Part shown: positions 11,096 through 27,580 of the stretch, in pieces
How the letters are laid out: each line of letters begins with the position of its first letter
How positions within the stretch are numbered: position 1 is the stretch's first letter
Virus record (IMG/VR): IMGVR_UViG_3300047369_000307
Coordinates: 1-27,629 of that record
Strand: one strand, 5' to 3'
Origin: a virus
Length of the DNA: 27,629 nt
Position numbers and translations under genes: made by a program
The notes under the pieces: model-generated
Database searches by the model: none
What the model was told of the DNA's origin: nothing
Seen by the model: the letters and a program-made list of their open reading frames with translations, nothing else

Positions 11096-12484
11096 CTACG
11101 CCTCAGTCTCCACTGGGAACTGCCCTAAAACCTGGGACTGCCCTTCAATCTCGACATGTGCTTGCGCTAACTTGTCATCATCTAGCACGAGGTCGGCTAT
11201 CTGCTTGTCCACTTCTTGGGATAGCGTGGTAGACCTGACGCCGCTAGCTTTCATTTGCTGCAAAAACAACAACTCTTTGTCGTAGTCGCGTATATCAAAG
11301 GAGTCAGGATAGAACACCTCAACGTCTGGCGTTACGTCTAGCCAGTTGCAGAAGTACGTCCACAAGTGTTCCTCAGCTAACTCTAGCAAGTCGGCTTTCT
11401 CCGATAGTTTGGCGTTAAGCATTTGAAACTCGGTCTGCATGGCAATGCCAGACATCGTCTTAGCTTCTGTGCCGCGTACAGCTCCCATCTGTGCCATACG
11501 GTTAATCGACTCCACCTTGTCCTTGATAGACTCGCGGATGCTGTTGATGTTCTGCCCTGAGGGCTGCAACAGGTACGGCTGAACTGAGTTGTCCATGTCA
11601 TCAGGAACATTGATCACAGCGCCTGCTCCCGCGCTCGCATCTGTGTCGTAGGTCTTAACCAGAGAGGGGTGATTGCTGATGCGGATTAGTTGCTCAATCT
11701 CTGAAAGCTCACTGTAGATGGCCTTTTGCATGTAAGCGATGTCTGACAGGTCACTAATTCCCACCCCACGGGTGACACTGCGCTGAGCCGGTAGATAGAC
11801 CGCTGGAATCTTACCTAGCGGGTTAGCTATCTCGCTAATCATCTGCTCCTTGTCGCCGTCAGACTTCCATTGCTGGATCGTGTCTTTGCGCCAGATGCGG
11901 TAATAACTAACCTTCGTTGTGGCGTTTTCACGGTCTACCGCCTCCCGCAGCTTCAGGTAGGTCAGTTCGAAGCGTCCAGAGGGGGTGCGCTCCCACTTCC
12001 AGTCGAAGACGTTTTCAGGGGTAAACAGCGACAGATAGGGCCGTATGTCTTGGTCTAGCTCCTCCGCTCTCGTCTGCGCGTTGGACTCTGGCTTGTCCAC
12101 AAGAATCCAGACGTGCCCATAAACCGATGACCATATCTGGGCCTGCTTCATAAAACTGTTGAGGCTTTCGCCGTCCAAGTCGGCATCTCTTATCATCGCC
12201 TCTAGCGCTGGGTTATTGGCTAGAGAGTTGAACACGCGAACAGGGGGAGTGCGCCACAAGAACGAACTGTAGATGTGCACCACGTTGCGGCAGTGGTTAT
12301 CAATCGGGGTCAACTGTATGCGTCGGGCATACTCGTTCTCTGACTCATTCTGGTAGCCAGTCAGGTAGTTGCCTGCCTGATACTCCTCACCCCCAAGGTA
12401 TGAGCGAACATAAAGCTCCCACCTATTCTCGTTGGCATCGTAGTCGGGATGTTGATACTCGATATTGCTGGCCACTATGTCCAC
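11096..12484 (-). CDS. Portal protein (SPP1 gp6-like, DUF4055 type)
   Basis: 462 residues between the large terminase and gp7-like genes. The N-terminus has ENRWELYVRSYLGGEEYQ and YARRIQLTPIDNHCRNVVHI with SFLWRTPPVRVF, typical for the DUF4055/SPP1 portal group. A clip/stem region follows (SDLSDIAYMQKAIYSELSEI), then a long helix SIRESIKDKVESINRMAQMG and the familiar GTEAKTMSGIAMQTEFQMLN segment. Twelve copies should form the DNA channel at one capsid vertex. It overlaps terminase by 10 bases. Confidence 0.92.
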   Translation of the reverse strand: MDIVASNIEYQHPDYDANENRWELYVRSYLGGEEYQAGNYLTGYQNESENEYARRIQLTPIDNHCRNVVHIYSSFLWRTPPVRVFNSLANNPALEAMIRDADLDGESLNSFMKQAQIWSSVYGHVWILVDKPESNAQTRAEELDQDIRPYLSLFTPENVFDWKWERTPSGRFELTYLKLREAVDRENATTKVSYYRIWRKDTIQQWKSDGDKEQMISEIANPLGKIPAVYLPAQRSVTRGVGISDLSDIAYMQKAIYSELSEIEQLIRISNHPSLVKTYDTDASAGAGAVINVPDDMDNSVQPYLLQPSGQNINSIRESIKDKVESINRMAQMGAVRGTEAKTMSGIAMQTEFQMLNAKLSEKADLLELAEEHLWTYFCNWLDVTPDVEVFYPDSFDIRDYDKELLFLQQMKASGVRSTTLSQEVDKQIADLVLDDDKLAQAHVEIEGQSQVLGQFPVETEA

Positions 12485-13683
12485 CTCACTGGTTGTTCAA
12501 TTTCTCTTTGCTTCCTGATTGGATATAGGTATTCCACCAGATATCCCAGCGCGTCATTCATGTGGTCGTAGCCATCTTTGTTTGGTTGGCTGGTGCCTTC
12601 TTTGTAGGTTTGTCTTTCCAAGCCCGCGATCGTCTGCTTACACTTGGAGTCAACGAACAGTTTGCGCTCACCCCTACTTGAGCAGAGCCGGCTGTTCACG
12701 CTGTTAATTCTGTCTCTGATAGCAGGGTGACTGTTCCGAACCTTTACCGCAAACCCAGCGTTCTGAAGGATTGATAAGTCTGTCCGCCCTCCCGCGCTAG
12801 TCTTTCTCTGCTTGCTGGCTGGGTCAGGGTATATTGTAATCCTTCTGTCGCCGTATCGCTGCCGTATCTCATCGGCCATTTCATCAGTGTTACTGCCGTA
12901 GATAACTATTTCATCTACCACATGGATAATATCACCGCCCCTAACGCACACAGCGGCGCTCATAGGGTCTAAATTGAAGTCCATGCCTATGTGTAGCTCA
13001 TCAGCTAAACCGCCCCTCTGTACGCTCTCCTCCCTGCTGAATGCGTAGTATATGGTGCCCTGATAATTAACAAAGCGAGCCTCATACTCTTGCTGGAACG
13101 TCCTTTCGTCTAGGTCATTCCGCGCTGCCTCAATCTCATCTTCCTCAACATTACCGCCCTCGATGGTCGTGTATTGGAAGGATTGCCAGCCCTCTTCGCC
13201 ATCCGTCCCTCGCGTCCAGATGTCATAGAAGTGATTTCTGCCTTTTGGCGTTCCTATGAATAATGACTGCCCCTTGCGATCCGATAAACTGGGCCTGAGC
13301 ACCTCATACCATGCTTCAGGGCGCATATCTGCGAACTCATCCAACACCGCAAAGTCTAACGCTCTGCCTCGCAGGTTGTCTGGCTTTTCTGCGCCTTTCA
13401 GGGAGATTGTAGAGCCGTTGCGCAATATCAGCGAGAGAGCGCTTTCGTTCTTCTTTGTAATGTATCCTTCGGGCAGCGCATCTATGAGCATGTCCCAGGC
13501 TATTTCTTTCGCCGCCTTGTAAGTAGGAGCGACATACCAGCAGTTCTGGTTCTTAGCTTTGAGTGCGGCTCGTATCAATTCATGCGTGGACAGGTATGTC
13601 TTACCGAACCGGCGACCTGCTACTACCGCCCTGAACCGCGTTTCACAGAAGAATATGTCATCCTGTGGCTTAGTTAGCTTCAC
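12475..13683 (-). CDS. terL: Terminase large subunit
   Basis: 402 residues. ATPase domain: Walker A GRRFGKTY at 23-30, Walker B FAVLDEFAD at 111-119 (D115, E116), coupling motif FIGTPKGRNHFYDIW at 142-156. RNase H-like nuclease domain: D235 in HIGMDFNLDP, a YPDP segment at 285-288 and D377 in DHMNDALGYLVEY. All expected catalytic acids are present. The enzyme powers DNA packaging through the portal and cuts the concatemer. It overlaps TerS by 14 bases and the portal gene by 10 bases. The packaging strategy (cos or headful) cannot be read from the window. Confidence 0.95.
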   Translation of the reverse strand: MKLTKPQDDIFFCETRFRAVVAGRRFGKTYLSTHELIRAALKAKNQNCWYVAPTYKAAKEIAWDMLIDALPEGYITKKNESALSLILRNGSTISLKGAEKPDNLRGRALDFAVLDEFADMRPEAWYEVLRPSLSDRKGQSLFIGTPKGRNHFYDIWTRGTDGEEGWQSFQYTTIEGGNVEEDEIEAARNDLDERTFQQEYEARFVNYQGTIYYAFSREESVQRGGLADELHIGMDFNLDPMSAAVCVRGGDIIHVVDEIVIYGSNTDEMADEIRQRYGDRRITIYPDPASKQRKTSAGGRTDLSILQNAGFAVKVRNSHPAIRDRINSVNSRLCSSRGERKLFVDSKCKQTIAGLERQTYKEGTSQPNKDGYDHMNDALGYLVEYLYPIRKQREIEQPVRWT

Positions 13684-14011
13684 TCGCTCGCTCTATGACT
13701 ATCGGTGGCAAGTCTTGCGCTTCTGGTTCTTGCTGGTCTGACTGACTGAGCCAGTTCTTGCCTAGCCACACGAGCATTGTCGTGTTCCCATCCATCGCTG
13801 CGCTGTATTGCTTGCGCCTCAAGGACATTTTGCCGTGGCTGGCCTTTTGCTTGAAATACTCCGCAAAACTGATCTCATATTCGCGCTTACAAGCACGATT
13901 CAGCGTATCGTAACTTACCCCCAAAATGGCAGCCTGCTCCTCCCCTGTACAGTGTATGGCGCACATCTTGTTGACCTGATCCCAGTCTATGTCCTTCAAT
14001 GGTCTTGCCAC
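13670..14011 (-). CDS. terS: Terminase small subunit (GTG start)
   Basis: 113 residues starting with GTG, where the preceding stop and the start overlap as TAGTG. Residues about 10-45 form a helix-turn-helix-like unit (IHCTGEEQAAILGVSYDTLN). The later motif YSAAMDGNTTMLVWLGKNWL is very common in small terminases. It recognises the phage packaging site and hands DNA to TerL. The C-terminal tail (DLPPIVIERASEAN) resembles tails that contact the large subunit. Confidence 0.88.
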   Translation of the reverse strand: MARPLKDIDWDQVNKMCAIHCTGEEQAAILGVSYDTLNRACKREYEISFAEYFKQKASHGKMSLRRKQYSAAMDGNTTMLVWLGKNWLSQSDQQEPEAQDLPPIVIERASEAN

Positions 14012-14835
14012 TACACCCCCGTCCTTGGGTCTATATTTTTAGCGCGTTTTCGGGCGCGCTCTGTCGTTACTTTCTTTGCCCTCGCTAGTTCTTCTTTTTT
14101 TGGCAAGCAGTGCTGCAAGTTTCCCAAGGTATAGAATACGACACTAGACCGTTCCCATTTATCTGACGTTGGCTCTATCGCAGTCACACCATGCGGCACT
14201 TTTACGCCGTCGACGATTACTAGCGCGCCATCATCTTGCGCTAACGCTATGCGGTACTGTGGCAGAACGAAATGCCCACCTTTCGCGTGTTTCTTACTTA
14301 TGAGCACATTGCTGTACACGCCACCATAATTTGCTGCGTCTAGGTGGTACCCGATGGCGTAGTTTTTGTTGACGTTTACCGTTGTAAAGGGTGTGCCGGT
14401 TTTCTTCCAATCAGAAGGTATTTTGCGTGAGAACTTTTCAAACTCAAGCGCCACAGATGGAAACCTATCTTTGTAAACCGACCAAAGGTATTGCGCCACA
14501 GTGGCCAAGCCAAAAAATACTTCTGGCTGCGACTTGGTTGGCGCAGAAAACCGACAATAGTCTTCCCGAACAGCTACCCTTGGCAACGCACCAAAGACAG
14601 CGGAATTTTGCACAACGCCTAGCGTCCGAGCCGACTTCTGGCATTTTGCCTTTTTGACACAAGCAGAAAGCGTTGCACTAACCTCTGGCGGCAGCTTTCG
14701 GTATGAACAAACCACAACGCCATCAACTTTGATGTCAGTGTCTTCTGTTACCAGAATGTCATAATCGGCACTGGTTGGTCGCTTTCCTTTGTTCGCTTGG
14801 TAATCGAACGGGTATGTTTTTGGGGTGAGCGTCAT
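14011..14835 (-). CDS. TET/JBP-like 2-oxoglutarate/Fe(II) dioxygenase (candidate DNA base oxidase)
   Basis: 274 residues from ATG 14835 (TAATG overlap with the ParB gene; a GTG at 14841 is the alternative). Residues numbered from the ATG: the double-stranded beta-helix core shows FTTVNVNKNYAIGYHLDAAN with the iron motif H164-x-D166, then GGHFVLPQYRIALAQDDGAL, the distal H215 in KVPHGVTAIE, and R229 in ERSSVVFYTL as the likely 2-oxoglutarate anchor. This order and spacing match the TET/JBP group, which hydroxylates 5-methylcytosine or thymine in DNA, and is seen in phages and kinetoplastids. The N-terminal 130 residues carry several Cys. The C-terminus is Lys/Arg-rich, fitting DNA contact. No cytosine methylase or glycosyltransferase is visible here, so the substrate is open. 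Confidence 0.72.
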   Translation of the reverse strand: MTLTPKTYPFDYQANKGKRPTSADYDILVTEDTDIKVDGVVVCSYRKLPPEVSATLSACVKKAKCQKSARTLGVVQNSAVFGALPRVAVREDYCRFSAPTKSQPEVFFGLATVAQYLWSVYKDRFPSVALEFEKFSRKIPSDWKKTGTPFTTVNVNKNYAIGYHLDAANYGGVYSNVLISKKHAKGGHFVLPQYRIALAQDDGALVIVDGVKVPHGVTAIEPTSDKWERSSVVFYTLGNLQHCLPKKEELARAKKVTTERARKRAKNIDPRTGV

Positions 14836-15434
14836 TACCACCTTGTAGACGCCTCCCTCACTATGCTGTAAACGAGTGAACTATAGTCATCCAGCCCTGT
14901 TGCCGATAGCCCTTTGTCTAGCATAGCAACAAGCGACTCCATCTCGTCTTCATCATAGGCCAACCGTAGTATCTTGGTGTCTCCGTTTAGAAAGTTGTCT
15001 AGCTTCTGTTCTGGCGTCAGGCCGAGCGCCACGCTTTCCGGCTCTGTAAACTCTAAGTCTGATAACTCAAAACCCAACAAACCTATGTCGGCGTCAAGCT
15101 CTTTGAGCCTATCTACTTCGATAGCCAAGGTGTCGTAATCCCACCCCCCGTTCTCGGTCAGTTTGTTGTCTGCTATCACATACGCCTTGCGCTGCGCTTC
15201 CGTCAGCCCTTCAAGGGTTATCGTGGGCACCAACCCCATACCCAGCTTTTGCGCCGCTGCAAGCCTGCCGTGACCTGCGATGATGCTGTTGTGCTCATCA
15301 ATCAGGATTGGATTATTGAACCCGAATTCTTGGATGCTCGCCGCTACTTGCGCCACTTGCTGATCGCTGTGTGTGCGCGGGTTGTTGGCATACGGGATTA
15401 GATCAGTCGTGGATATATATGCGACTTCTAGCAT
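14835..15434 (-). CDS. ParB/Srx-type N-terminal domain protein
   Basis: 199 residues. Residues about 8-95 form a ParB N-terminal domain: LIPYANNPRTHSDQQVAQVA, FGFNNPILIDEHNSIIAGHG and RLAAAQKLGM, then LTEAQRKAYVIADNKLTENG. The GHGR motif and the ADNKLTENGGWD ending are typical of ParB domains linked to phage or plasmid DNA methylases, not of chromosome-segregation ParB (GERR). No methylase domain, DNA-binding HTH or dimerisation domain is visible in the remaining 100 residues. It is joined by TAATG overlaps to the holin-like gene before it and the dioxygenase after it, suggesting a shared role in DNA modification or packaging. Function unproven. Confidence 0.82.
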   Translation of the reverse strand: MLEVAYISTTDLIPYANNPRTHSDQQVAQVAASIQEFGFNNPILIDEHNSIIAGHGRLAAAQKLGMGLVPTITLEGLTEAQRKAYVIADNKLTENGGWDYDTLAIEVDRLKELDADIGLLGFELSDLEFTEPESVALGLTPEQKLDNFLNGDTKILRLAYDEDEMESLVAMLDKGLSATGLDDYSSLVYSIVREASTRW

Positions 15435-15907
15435 TACTTTTCAGCCTTATGGCTTGCGCCAAAGTAGAAACTCACAACAGCGGAAACGATGCCGCCCAAG
15501 TAACCCAAGACCAGATTAATGATGGCCTCGTTCTGCTGATACGGACTGATGGTTACGACGGTGACGTATCCACCAAAGAACAGAAACGCCAACAACGCCA
15601 GAACCTTTGGTGTCCAATCCGCTTTGCCTGATGCTCTGGCATTCTGAATGTCAGCAGTCTCAAGCTCGAAGATGTCCACCTCTAACTCTGCAAGACGGGT
15701 CTTGTAGGCGAGGTCGGCCTTCTTGATCTCTGCTAGCTGTTCCGGTGAGGCTTCACTAAGAGCCTTCTGAACCGCCTGCGGCTCTGCTGGCACCCCAAGT
15801 ACCTGAGCCAGTATTTTCCCCGCTCCGGCCCCTACTGGGCCTCCTATGGCACTTCCTATGGTCGGTGCTACTGCGCCTACCAAATTTTTGATTGAATCCC
15901 ACTTCAT
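15434..15907 (-). CDS. Holin-like membrane protein (HOL3/3TM type)
   Basis: 157 residues. N-terminal Gly-rich amphipathic segment (LVGAVAPTIGSAIGGPVGAG), a middle coiled-coil part (SPEQLAEIKKADLAYKTRLA and following), then two clear membrane helices near residues 103-122 (VLALLAFLFFGGYVTVVTIS) and 130-152 (INLVLGYLGGIVSAVVSFYF) with a short basic C-terminus. This matches the phage holin group with an Ala/Gly N-terminal stretch. It should permeabilise the inner membrane at lysis. It overlaps the DUF5675 gene by 4 bases. Confidence 0.8.
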   Translation of the reverse strand: MKWDSIKNLVGAVAPTIGSAIGGPVGAGAGKILAQVLGVPAEPQAVQKALSEASPEQLAEIKKADLAYKTRLAELEVDIFELETADIQNARASGKADWTPKVLALLAFLFFGGYVTVVTISPYQQNEAIINLVLGYLGGIVSAVVSFYFGASHKAEK

Positions 15908-16308
15908 ACCTCAGCCCTCACACCCGTGATCTTCAGGGTCATTCGTTCTTCATGCCCGTTGAATATCTCCATCAGCTTTTGCAGCGTCTTCTTGGAGTTG
16001 TAAACAGCAGGCTCTAGCGCATCTGACACAAACCTGTCCCCAACACCGACACATCCCTCAATGTCATACGGGAAGTTAGCTACATGGAACAGGATATAGC
16101 TGCGGTTCGGTACATCCATAATCTGTATGACGCCCTTGAACCTTTCACCGCTGAACGGCTGACAGGCATACACTCCCTCAGGGATGCAAGATACGTTCGG
16201 TTGATTATCCTTCCAAGGGCGCTCAATGGTGAAGCATTCCCAGTCACCTATCGTTAACCTGCCCAGCGTCCCGCTTTCTAGGTACGCAAATCGGCGTAGT
16301 AGAGCCAT
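15904..16308 (-). CDS. DUF5675 family protein, possible lysis enzyme
   Basis: 134 residues, first gene of the long minus-strand operon. It begins MALLRRFAYLESGTLGRLTI and contains the DUF5675 signature: GDWECFTIERPWKDNQPNVS, CIPEGVY, FHVANFPYDIEGCVGVGDRF. The conserved H and C within that last block suggest an active site. The family is often encoded beside phage holins and has been proposed to act on cell wall or act as an endolysin, but I know of no firm activity. A ribosome site AAGGATC precedes the ATG. No other endolysin is visible, which strengthens the case for a lysis role. Confidence 0.75.
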   Translation of the reverse strand: MALLRRFAYLESGTLGRLTIGDWECFTIERPWKDNQPNVSCIPEGVYACQPFSGERFKGVIQIMDVPNRSYILFHVANFPYDIEGCVGVGDRFVSDALEPAVYNSKKTLQKLMEIFNGHEERMTLKITGVRAEV

Positions 16309-25786: not shown

Positions 25787-27580
25787 CTATGCTTTTTTGT
25801 AAGTGATGTGTGCCATCAAGTCGTTTTTGTTGCCGCCGTCAATCAGCATAGCACTGGCCGATGTAGCAGTGTTTGTGTTCAGCGATGTCAATGCCACTAC
25901 AACGATTGTTGCTGCGTTGTCCGAGGCATAACCACCGATCGGGAAATAAGTCCCAAAGTTGTGCGCTCGACCAACAACCAGTGAGCCACCCTGACCCGCC
26001 GTAGTTACATTTCTTGCGGCAAATGGCAGACCACCGATTAACAAGCCTCCAGTGACCCCGCTCATACCATCAGTTCTAAGCCTAAACGACGCATGCACCA
26101 CGTCACCAATCAACGTGTAATATCCTTTCTGGATAGTGTCGTAGGTAAACGTCCCGTCACTGTTGGTAGTCGTGTAAGTCGGCGTCCACGTCCCTTCTTC
26201 GTAAGCGTCTAATTTATTCGATCCTGTGTCGCCATCAAAATACACCCCGCCATGAAGATAGACATCTTGCCAAGGAGAATCTCCGTGGCCTAAGTCAGCC
26301 TCAGGTGTCGCGGCAGGGGCATCGTCTATGATAGGCACAATTTGAAAGCCGGAGGCAGTTCCTCGCCTGATTCCGAAACCGTTATCATCTGTGTTGATAA
26401 AACTAACCCGCTCCACCCCGCTTTGGTCCCAAGAAGAAATACTGCCGACCTCAGTGCCGTTAAACCTTGCGCGGATGATAGAGCCACGGCTGCTCAACCT
26501 GTTCACATCGACGGGCGCATTGTTAACCGATGCCGCGCCGATGCGCCCTTCTGCCGAAATGTAAGCTCCGTCAGAGGTGCCGGTGTTGTTCCAAGGCGTT
26601 ACATCAGTCGTGCCGACAAGAAATCCACCTGCTGTGTAGCTGTCTACCTCATCAGCGATGTACAGACCCCACGCATTGGTGGGGAGAGTGCCCGCGTAGT
26701 TGCCGTAATACAGATAGCCGTTGTCGATTGTCGTGGCACCCGCAGAATTGTTATCGAACTGCGCCTCAAAACACATCGCATTTGTTATTGTCTGGCCTGT
26801 TAAGGCCGCGATTTGAGCCTCACCGTAAACGCCGACCATCTTGTTGACATCTGACTCTTGCGTGGTACTAAAGTTCGCCATGTTCCAAGAACCGTAAACG
26901 TTTGTGATGGTCGTGCCAGAACTAGCGCCAAGAGTAACAATGTTGTATGAGCCGTAGCTGTTCGTAATCTGCCCAGCAGCAGCGTCAGCAACTGCTGAAA
27001 GGTAGGCTCCGTAGAGCGCAGACACGGTTCCAGTGGTCTGTTCCGCCTCAGCAGTGTTGTAGATGCCGTAGATAAGATCTGAGTCGCCCGTTGCTTTTGT
27101 AATCGCCCGAATGCCGTGTAACCGGTGCTCGTTGGCCGTATCTCCTCCTGCAACATCGCTATTCGCGTTAATCGTTAGGGCAGCTTTAGTTCTGTCAGCG
27201 GTTAGGGTCTGCGAACCTGTGCTGGTGTAGTCAATTCTTGCGCCGTTAAAACTGGCATTGGCTTGGCTATCAACAACTTGGAAATCAACAGAGTTGGAAC
27301 TAGTGGTGTCAATCTGAAGCCCAGCGCCGACGAACTGCCTGCTAGCGTCGATGATAGTGGTTCCGTTCATCTCGTAGACGCCAGAAACATCAACACGGGT
27401 TACATCCCAATTGACAACATTATTTCCGTCGGCCCTAGCTAAAGGGAAACCGCCAGTAGTTGACCCGTCATGGACGTGTAGCGTTTCTGTCGTTGTGTTG
27501 ACGCTGATTTCTCCGACAGCGCCAGTGAACGAATTGTGCTGTGTCGTGCTCCCTCTACGGAACTGAACTTGAGTAGCCAT
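25787..27580 (-). CDS. Tail fibre protein with Mtd-type N-terminus
   Basis: 597 residues. N-terminus MATQVQFRRGSTTQHNSFTG with GEISVNTTTETLHVHDGSTT matches the N-terminal attachment domain found in many tail fibres (Mtd_N/hyaluronidase-like). Residues about 153-310 contain a repeated unit around G-x-Y (YGIYN, YGAYL, YGSYN, YGSWN, VYGEA, LYYGNY, WGLYI) spaced about 17-30 residues, like a beta-helix or shaft. Around residue 455 the common LDAYEEGTWTPTYTTTNSDG block begins, followed by a C-terminal beta-rich domain that could bind the receptor. It directly follows the partial gene at the right edge. Confidence 0.85.
   Translation of the reverse strand: MATQVQFRRGSTTQHNSFTGAVGEISVNTTTETLHVHDGSTTGGFPLARADGNNVVNWDVTRVDVSGVYEMNGTTIIDASRQFVGAGLQIDTTSSNSVDFQVVDSQANASFNGARIDYTSTGSQTLTADRTKAALTINANSDVAGGDTANEHRLHGIRAITKATGDSDLIYGIYNTAEAEQTTGTVSALYGAYLSAVADAAAGQITNSYGSYNIVTLGASSGTTITNVYGSWNMANFSTTQESDVNKMVGVYGEAQIAALTGQTITNAMCFEAQFDNNSAGATTIDNGYLYYGNYAGTLPTNAWGLYIADEVDSYTAGGFLVGTTDVTPWNNTGTSDGAYISAEGRIGAASVNNAPVDVNRLSSRGSIIRARFNGTEVGSISSWDQSGVERVSFINTDDNGFGIRRGTASGFQIVPIIDDAPAATPEADLGHGDSPWQDVYLHGGVYFDGDTGSNKLDAYEEGTWTPTYTTTNSDGTFTYDTIQKGYYTLIGDVVHASFRLRTDGMSGVTGGLLIGGLPFAARNVTTAGQGGSLVVGRAHNFGTYFPIGGYASDNAATIVVVALTSLNTNTATSASAMLIDGGNKNDLMAHITYKKA

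Follow-up and report, generated by a model that had tools for sequence, protein, structure and literature searches.

Genes at the locus

The window, by which we mean the whole stretch of DNA that was analysed, is 27,629 nt long (IMG/VR record IMGVR_UViG_3300047369_000307, positions 1 to 27,629) and comes from a marine phage. Four genes follow each other on its minus strand in the order ParB, TET, TerS and TerL. They are given below together with the two upstream neighbours of the slot that the ParB-TET pair occupies.

15904-16308, minus strand: DUF5675 protein, upstream neighbour of the slot (PF18925, 101 bits)
15434-15907, minus strand: holin-like small membrane protein of tentative function, upstream neighbour of the slot (phrog_1544, unknown function)
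14835-15434, minus strand: ParB/Srx-fold protein of 199 aa, predicted adaptor for TET (PF02195; model pLDDT 83, matching Noc, ParB and KorB)
14011-14835, minus strand: TET/JBP-family Fe(II)/2OG dioxygenase of 274 aa (PF12851 profile, conserved ligands, fold search)
13670-14011, minus strand: putative TerS, named by position (weak match to phrog_606, E=0.004; homologues precede TerL in dozens of relatives)
12475-13683, minus strand: TerL, a clear assignment, used here as the phage backbone marker (PF03237 and PF17289)

Read directly in the DNA, the ParB stop overlaps the TET start in TAATG, and a second overlap, TAGTG, joins the TET stop to the start of TerS, so both overlaps described in the initial annotation are present. 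The name TerS is putative, suggested mainly by its position and by a weak PHROG profile match. The "lysis genes" that had been placed upstream are only tentative as such: the DUF5675 protein is clearly identified, and the 157-aa membrane-type protein is without a curated match.

A tail-tip ORF runs off the left end of the record, which is therefore a fragment. Because whole-size relatives measure about 29.5-31 kb, roughly 2-4 kb of the phage genome is probably missing. No DNA similarity to known phages was found at the megablast level, and the search of bacterial genomes returned no relative and hence no host link. At the other end of the window (25787-27580, minus strand) lies a gene for a tail fibre whose Mtd_N domain (PF18454, 53 bits) corresponds to the N-terminus of a major tropism determinant. 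No reverse transcriptase was noticed alongside it in the window.

The TET/JBP dioxygenase

The TET gene starts with an ATG at 14835, giving 274 aa (an upstream GTG would give 276 aa), and stops at 14011. Its product is matched by the Tet_JBP profile PF12851 with E=1.4e-13 and 50.8 bits, the curated cut-off being 34.9. The four active-site codons, located by alignment columns and read in the DNA, are as follows.

14344-14346, minus strand: iron ligand H164
14338-14340, minus strand: iron ligand D166
14191-14193, minus strand: iron ligand H215
14149-14151, minus strand: 2OG-binding R229

When 23 marine TET relatives were aligned, these four residues were invariant or present in at least 90% of the rows; the same ligands, H166/D168/H217/R231 in GTG numbering, were invariant in the 14 phage TETs aligned. 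An AlphaFold2 model built from a 23-sequence alignment reached a pLDDT of 84.7 and a pTM of 0.80. Its top 26 PDB matches are all TET enzymes (CcTet, NgTet1, TET2 and CMD1; E 6e-12 to 3e-9), while FTO and AlkB-type enzymes follow well behind, at 1.5e-6 and worse. This ranking rules out an AlkB, FTO or protein hydroxylase identity for the product of 14011-14835. The earlier reading of a TET/JBP-type dioxygenase with H164-x-D166, H215 and R229 is thus exact in ATG numbering, and profile, ligands and fold agree on it. By prediction, the target of the enzyme is the 5-methyl group of a DNA pyrimidine, which it would oxidise. The solved enzymes CcTet, NgTet1, TET2 and CMD1 share its active-site ligands as well as its fold; however, the window TET is only 11-20% identical to them, is small, and is without their extra domains and inserts.

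As a single-protein query the window TET found no relatives, whereas a query with the TET of phage L023 (relatives are given here by L numbers) and a query with the A6 alignment did. In the TET tree the window sequence forms a separate deep subclade with those of L023 and L254 (support 100/99), and a clade joining window-type TETs with actinophage TETs is weakly rejected (p-AU 0.031).

The label "queuine tRNA-ribosyltransferase" of PHROG 6059 was also considered as a function and ruled out, Pfam and fold both giving Tet_JBP. The same label, or "SNF2 DNA repair protein", is carried by TET homologues in phrog_6059 and in NC_011044, NC_023701 and other RefSeq mycobacteriophages. These labels look wrong, as the profile and fold evidence is that of the TET/JBP family.

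The ParB partner

The ParB_N profile PF02195 matches the window ParB with 27.8 bits (cut-off 26.3). In the structural model a confident domain of about 127 residues is followed by a low-confidence linker and a two-helix tail; its fold matches are Noc, ParB and KorB, with sulfiredoxin and free serine kinase as weaker ones. The NTP-binding P-motif reads GHGR and aligns to the GERR motif of ParB/Noc, and R57 within it is invariant in relatives. The ParB fold binds CTP, ATP or GTP, and in phages it is found fused to N6/N4 methylases (2025 survey, PMC12704722). The protein had been described as a ParB of the methylase-associated kind, which is borne out by its residues 1-110: they share 93% identity with the N-terminal part of a ParB fused to an N6/N4 methylase in the sister phage L024. 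Unlike in such fusions, its partner is a separate TET protein and its tail is of the TET type.

A canonical ParABS partition protein was rejected as an identity: there is no central HTH in the window ParB, which consists of the ParB domain of about 127 aa and the tail only, no ParA match was found among the window proteins scanned, and TIGR00180 stays below its cut-off.

An exchangeable slot before the terminase genes

Relatives were drawn from IMG/VR by TerL alone, and those with a distinct TerL and enough upstream sequence were counted. Among the 48 phages of this set, a base-modifying enzyme is present in all 25 that have ParB, and a modification gene is absent from all 23 that lack it (Fisher p ~3e-14). 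Outside the 48, the L135 locus begins within the ParB tail and carries TET together with TAGT, a "TET-associated glycosyltransferase". The slot-sharing phages have TerL proteins that are 73-87% identical, and the interval before TerS is either empty or filled with ParB plus enzyme. In the empty phage L109, for example, the upstream gene abuts TerS directly.

When the TerL set is combined with a second set drawn by ParB, which is biased for ParB while the TerL set is free of that bias, the enzyme classes are an N6/N4 methylase fused to ParB (31), an ATPase-GNAT protein (15), Mom (13), TAGT alone (4), TET alone (3), FkbM with TET (3), TAGT with TET (3) and loci with a C5 methylase (2). The borders of the exchanged segment were obtained by comparing the window with 22 same-group phages that carry other alleles.

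14994-15134, no strand: 5' exchange zone inside parB, the end of DNA homology with the same-group phages (22 phages; parB nt 302-440, median 350)
14010-14030, no strand: 3' exchange point at the TerS start, where homology resumes (22 phages; TerS nt -19 to +2)

The 5' break thus falls in parB codons 101-147. A DNA tree built from the TerL genes of 83 phages requires at least 34 changes of cassette class, and the six TET rows represent six separate changes; a few outlying TerL rows are long-branched and uncertain, and the picture in the main group is unaffected by them. The ParB-TET pair is one allele of a swappable slot.

The all-or-none pairing bears on what ParB does. The strongest rival to an adaptor role is a pair that resembles restriction-modification, in which ParB would be a nuclease or nickase attacking unmodified host or rival DNA, the enzyme would modify the phage DNA so that it is spared, and the tail would read the modification state. 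Such a pair would account for the finding that every ParB in the slot is accompanied by a modification enzyme, and also for gain and loss as one unit. Nuclease activity is also known for some ParB domains, including nicking by a ParB-adenine methylase fusion, according to literature cited in PMC5512222. However, the window ParB has no curated nuclease motif and its domain matches the NTP-binding proteins ParB, Noc and KorB; NTP binding is documented for many proteins of the fold (PMC12704722). We regard the restriction-like pair as unlikely and prefer to read ParB as an adaptor for the enzyme.

A mosaic parB gene with an enzyme-matched tail

The 5' exchange zone divides parB into parts of different relationship.

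15084-15434, minus strand: constant part of parB, codons 1-117, the ParB domain with P-motif GHGR (R57), defined by the identity of residues 1-110 and the invariance of R57
14838-15053, minus strand: swappable tail of parB, codons 128-199, with 58% identity to the L023 and L254 tails only
about 14940-15023, minus strand: tail core KLDNFLNGDTKILRLAY, lying in residues 138-165; no other stretch of the cassette is better conserved

Residues 1-110 of the window ParB are 89-93% identical to those of same-group ParBs whose partner is an ATPase-GNAT protein, Mom or a fused methylase; against the TET-linked ParBs of L023 and L254 the figure drops to 64-70%. For residues 128-199 the relation is the reverse: they are 58% identical to the L023 and L254 tails and essentially unalignable to ParBs with other partners. 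The window parB is therefore a mosaic gene with a constant front and a partner-specific tail.

A tail profile trained on marine TET cassettes matched 79/79 TET-linked ParBs and none of the ParBs with methylase (0/40), Mom (0/20) or ATPase-GNAT partners (0/19), the marine counts being in-sample. It had two other matches, L045 and L102, whose contigs end before a TET could show. Among held-out actinophages, the window-type tail profile found the ParB of Ottawa, which adjoins its TET (E=1.1e-4), and the marine profile found that of MementoMori (E=7.8e-4). A direct profile match between the window-type tail and the marine FkbM/TAGT-type tails was not significant, and each of them matches actinophage tails.

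It could also be that ParB and the enzymes are functionally unrelated and lie together only as easily exchanged late-gene cargo, with the tail as a neutral passenger. Tail and enzyme do fall within one exchanged segment, and the ParB-TET association could partly be hitch-hiking, the two being physically linked. Against neutral cargo as the whole account, the same ParB domain is fused to methylases, its co-occurrence with an enzyme is perfect, and related tails are found in actinophage TET operons. Moreover, between the window and L257 residues 138-165 are 86% identical, compared with 58% for the ParB domain and 52% for TET. We therefore consider mere cargo very unlikely, and the adaptor reading is kept in what follows.

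Position of the cassette and packaging

The order ParB-TET-TerS-TerL is also found in mycobacteriophage Nigel, Microbacterium phage MementoMori and L254/L255. In L257/L258 the ParB-TET pair stands ahead of an unrelated PBSX-type terminase. Other chemistries take a similar place: the order is ParB-Mom-TerS-TerL in Psychrobacter phage Y8A, and in pOW20-A a fusion of ParB and methylase precedes a short gene and then TerL.

The initial annotation had suggested that the module is tied to packaging, perhaps by marking DNA for TerS; the oxidised base or ParB itself would then be what TerS recognises on phage DNA. That marine phages and actinophages alike keep the cassette right before TerS/TerL speaks for such a link. 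However, phages with TerL 73-87% identical, close relatives in their TerS and TerL, have a Mom, methylase or GNAT allele in this place or an empty slot, and in L257/L258 the same pair precedes a terminase of another kind. The suggestion is not supported by this comparison, and we judge a specific packaging link highly improbable. The position is thus general, being shared by several phage groups and terminases, and no single terminase is the partner of the cassette. We infer that the slot lies where it does for late expression, just before packaging.

Substrate of the oxidation

The statement that the window has no methylase or glycosyltransferase is upheld: none was found among the window proteins scanned, and PF00145 (C5 methylase) and PF20691 (TAGT) are absent in a search of the whole record, which therefore lacks both marker genes of a 5mC-TET phage system with glycosylation. 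The proteins scanned, from a record that probably lacks about 2-4 kb, likewise include no 5hmU DNA kinase and no amino-acid:DNA transferase. A C5 methylase occurs in 0/6 records with a window-type TET (the window and a 34-kb record included) and in 2/20 other TET-bearing phage records, the latter having an N6/N4 methylase in 0/20. In addition, the ParB-TET operon of Rhodococcus phage Tonitrus is described as one of thymidine hypermodification (PMC11955845). As a C5 methylase is rare in TET records and the Tonitrus operon is so described, the likeliest substrate is thymine, converted to 5-hydroxymethyluracil or a higher oxidation state. The tree neighbours are of no help in reading the substrate because the window-type TET subclade is deep and distinct.

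The alternative is 5-methylcytosine made by host methylases, so that the phage would rewrite or erase host-imposed methylation. Among enzymes of solved structure, the closest homologues of the window TET have methylated bases, mostly 5mC, as their substrates, and the two C5 methylase records among the 20 also agree with a 5mC substrate. On the other hand, a C5 methylase is absent in 6/6 window-type and 18/20 other TET records, and the actinophage pair is described as part of a thymidine system (PMC11955845). Host-made 5-methylcytosine is thus possible but rather doubtful, and we keep thymine as the preferred substrate. With neither a kinase nor ADDT nor TAGT among the proteins scanned, the pathway probably ends at the oxidised base, although genes in the missing 2-4 kb or host enzymes could modify it further.

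Proposed mechanism

That these genes form a small DNA-modification module, composed of a TET/JBP dioxygenase and a ParB of the methylase-associated kind, agrees with all of the above. We favour, with moderate confidence, a cassette that oxidises DNA after replication and uses ParB as its adaptor, a protein that joins a constant NTP-binding domain to a tail specific to the enzyme. The N-terminal domain of ParB would bind nucleotide and DNA like a ParB clamp and load on the phage DNA, and the C-terminal tail would bind the partner enzyme or tune the complex for it. TET would then act on a pyrimidine that replication has already placed in the phage DNA and oxidise its 5-methyl group, and the oxidised DNA may be harder to recognise for restriction or other nucleases before it is packaged. 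Protection against restriction would be a plausible role of the cassette. The enzyme would be exchanged by recombination between the 5' DNA of parB and the TerS start, with the matching tail travelling along.

More tentatively, such ParBs in general may be a nucleotide-switched delivery platform for base-modifying enzymes, a constant clamp with an exchangeable docking tail, whose chemistry is changed through recombination in parB and at the terminase start. If ParB is indeed a common adaptor, this would explain why ParB genes recur beside phage modification enzymes. ParB and the small TET would form a testable protein pair for recruiting TET to DNA.

Comparison with known systems

Phage TETs, ParB-TET pairs before the terminase in actinophages (PMC9302106) and ParB-methylase fusions are already known. 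The known phage TETs (Nigel, MementoMori, Rhodococcus phage Tonitrus, cyanophage MED4-117 and Nonlabens phage P12024L) have the same PF12851 domain and HxD...H...R ligands at 24-27% identity, and several have an upstream ParB gene or the pre-terminase place, as in the window. The window TET differs from them in belonging to a separate deep subclade and in having no TAGT, methylase, kinase or amino-acid transferase alongside.

A parallel in gene order is given by the ParB-TET-aGPT/ADDT-kinase operons of actinophages, which have been proposed to carry out thymidine hypermodification (Tonitrus, PMC11955845; CaiB, PMC9302106, citing Iyer et al. 2013). In these operons, too, ParB is followed by TET with short overlaps ahead of the terminase. 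The TET-linked ParB tails of the actinophages Ottawa and MementoMori resemble that of the window, Ottawa's by the window-type profile and MementoMori's by the marine one. In contrast, the window is without the downstream kinase and ADDT genes, so that at most the first oxidation step would be encoded.

The main text of PMC12704722 treats the fusions and not the operon slot, and mentions neither Mom nor the terminase. A single slot in which Mom, GNAT, methylase, glycosyltransferase and TET are swapped behind a constant ParB with a matched tail appears to be without a report in the searchable literature; Iyer et al. 2013 may hold part of it. A cassette swap at one sharply bounded site appears to be the way in which phages with one backbone alter the modification of their DNA (methylation, Mom, GNAT, glycosylation or oxidation), which gives a search rule for new modification enzymes: look at the gene after ParB and before the terminase.

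Other cassette types

Several observations concern the other contents of the slot. In at least 15 phages the gene product behind ParB is an ABC-type ATPase fused to a GNAT acetyltransferase, about 355-382 aa long (for example L031:4582-5655 and L118:1660-2760); it is probably a Mom-like modification enzyme with its own ATPase. TAGT stands behind ParB with no TET seen in L042 (6764-7636, 113.6 bits), L058, L092 and L095, and in L092 it is followed by a cytidylyltransferase-like gene. The substrate of TAGT in these cassettes is not a cassette-made TET product. TET has an FkbM-type methyltransferase as its companion in many cassettes from cyanophages and marine phages (L008:5045-5743, L046, L086, L088 and L010:6530-7225), which suggests O-methylation of an oxidised base.

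Between the holin-like gene and TerS, several cassette-less phages, L104 and L112 among them, encode a lysine-rich protein of 123 aa. Finally, the ParBs of L032 and L131, whose partner is one type of Mom, carry the motif CPHCGKEF at their C-termini, like half a zinc site, and this end presumably resembles the small zinc protein Com of phage Mu.
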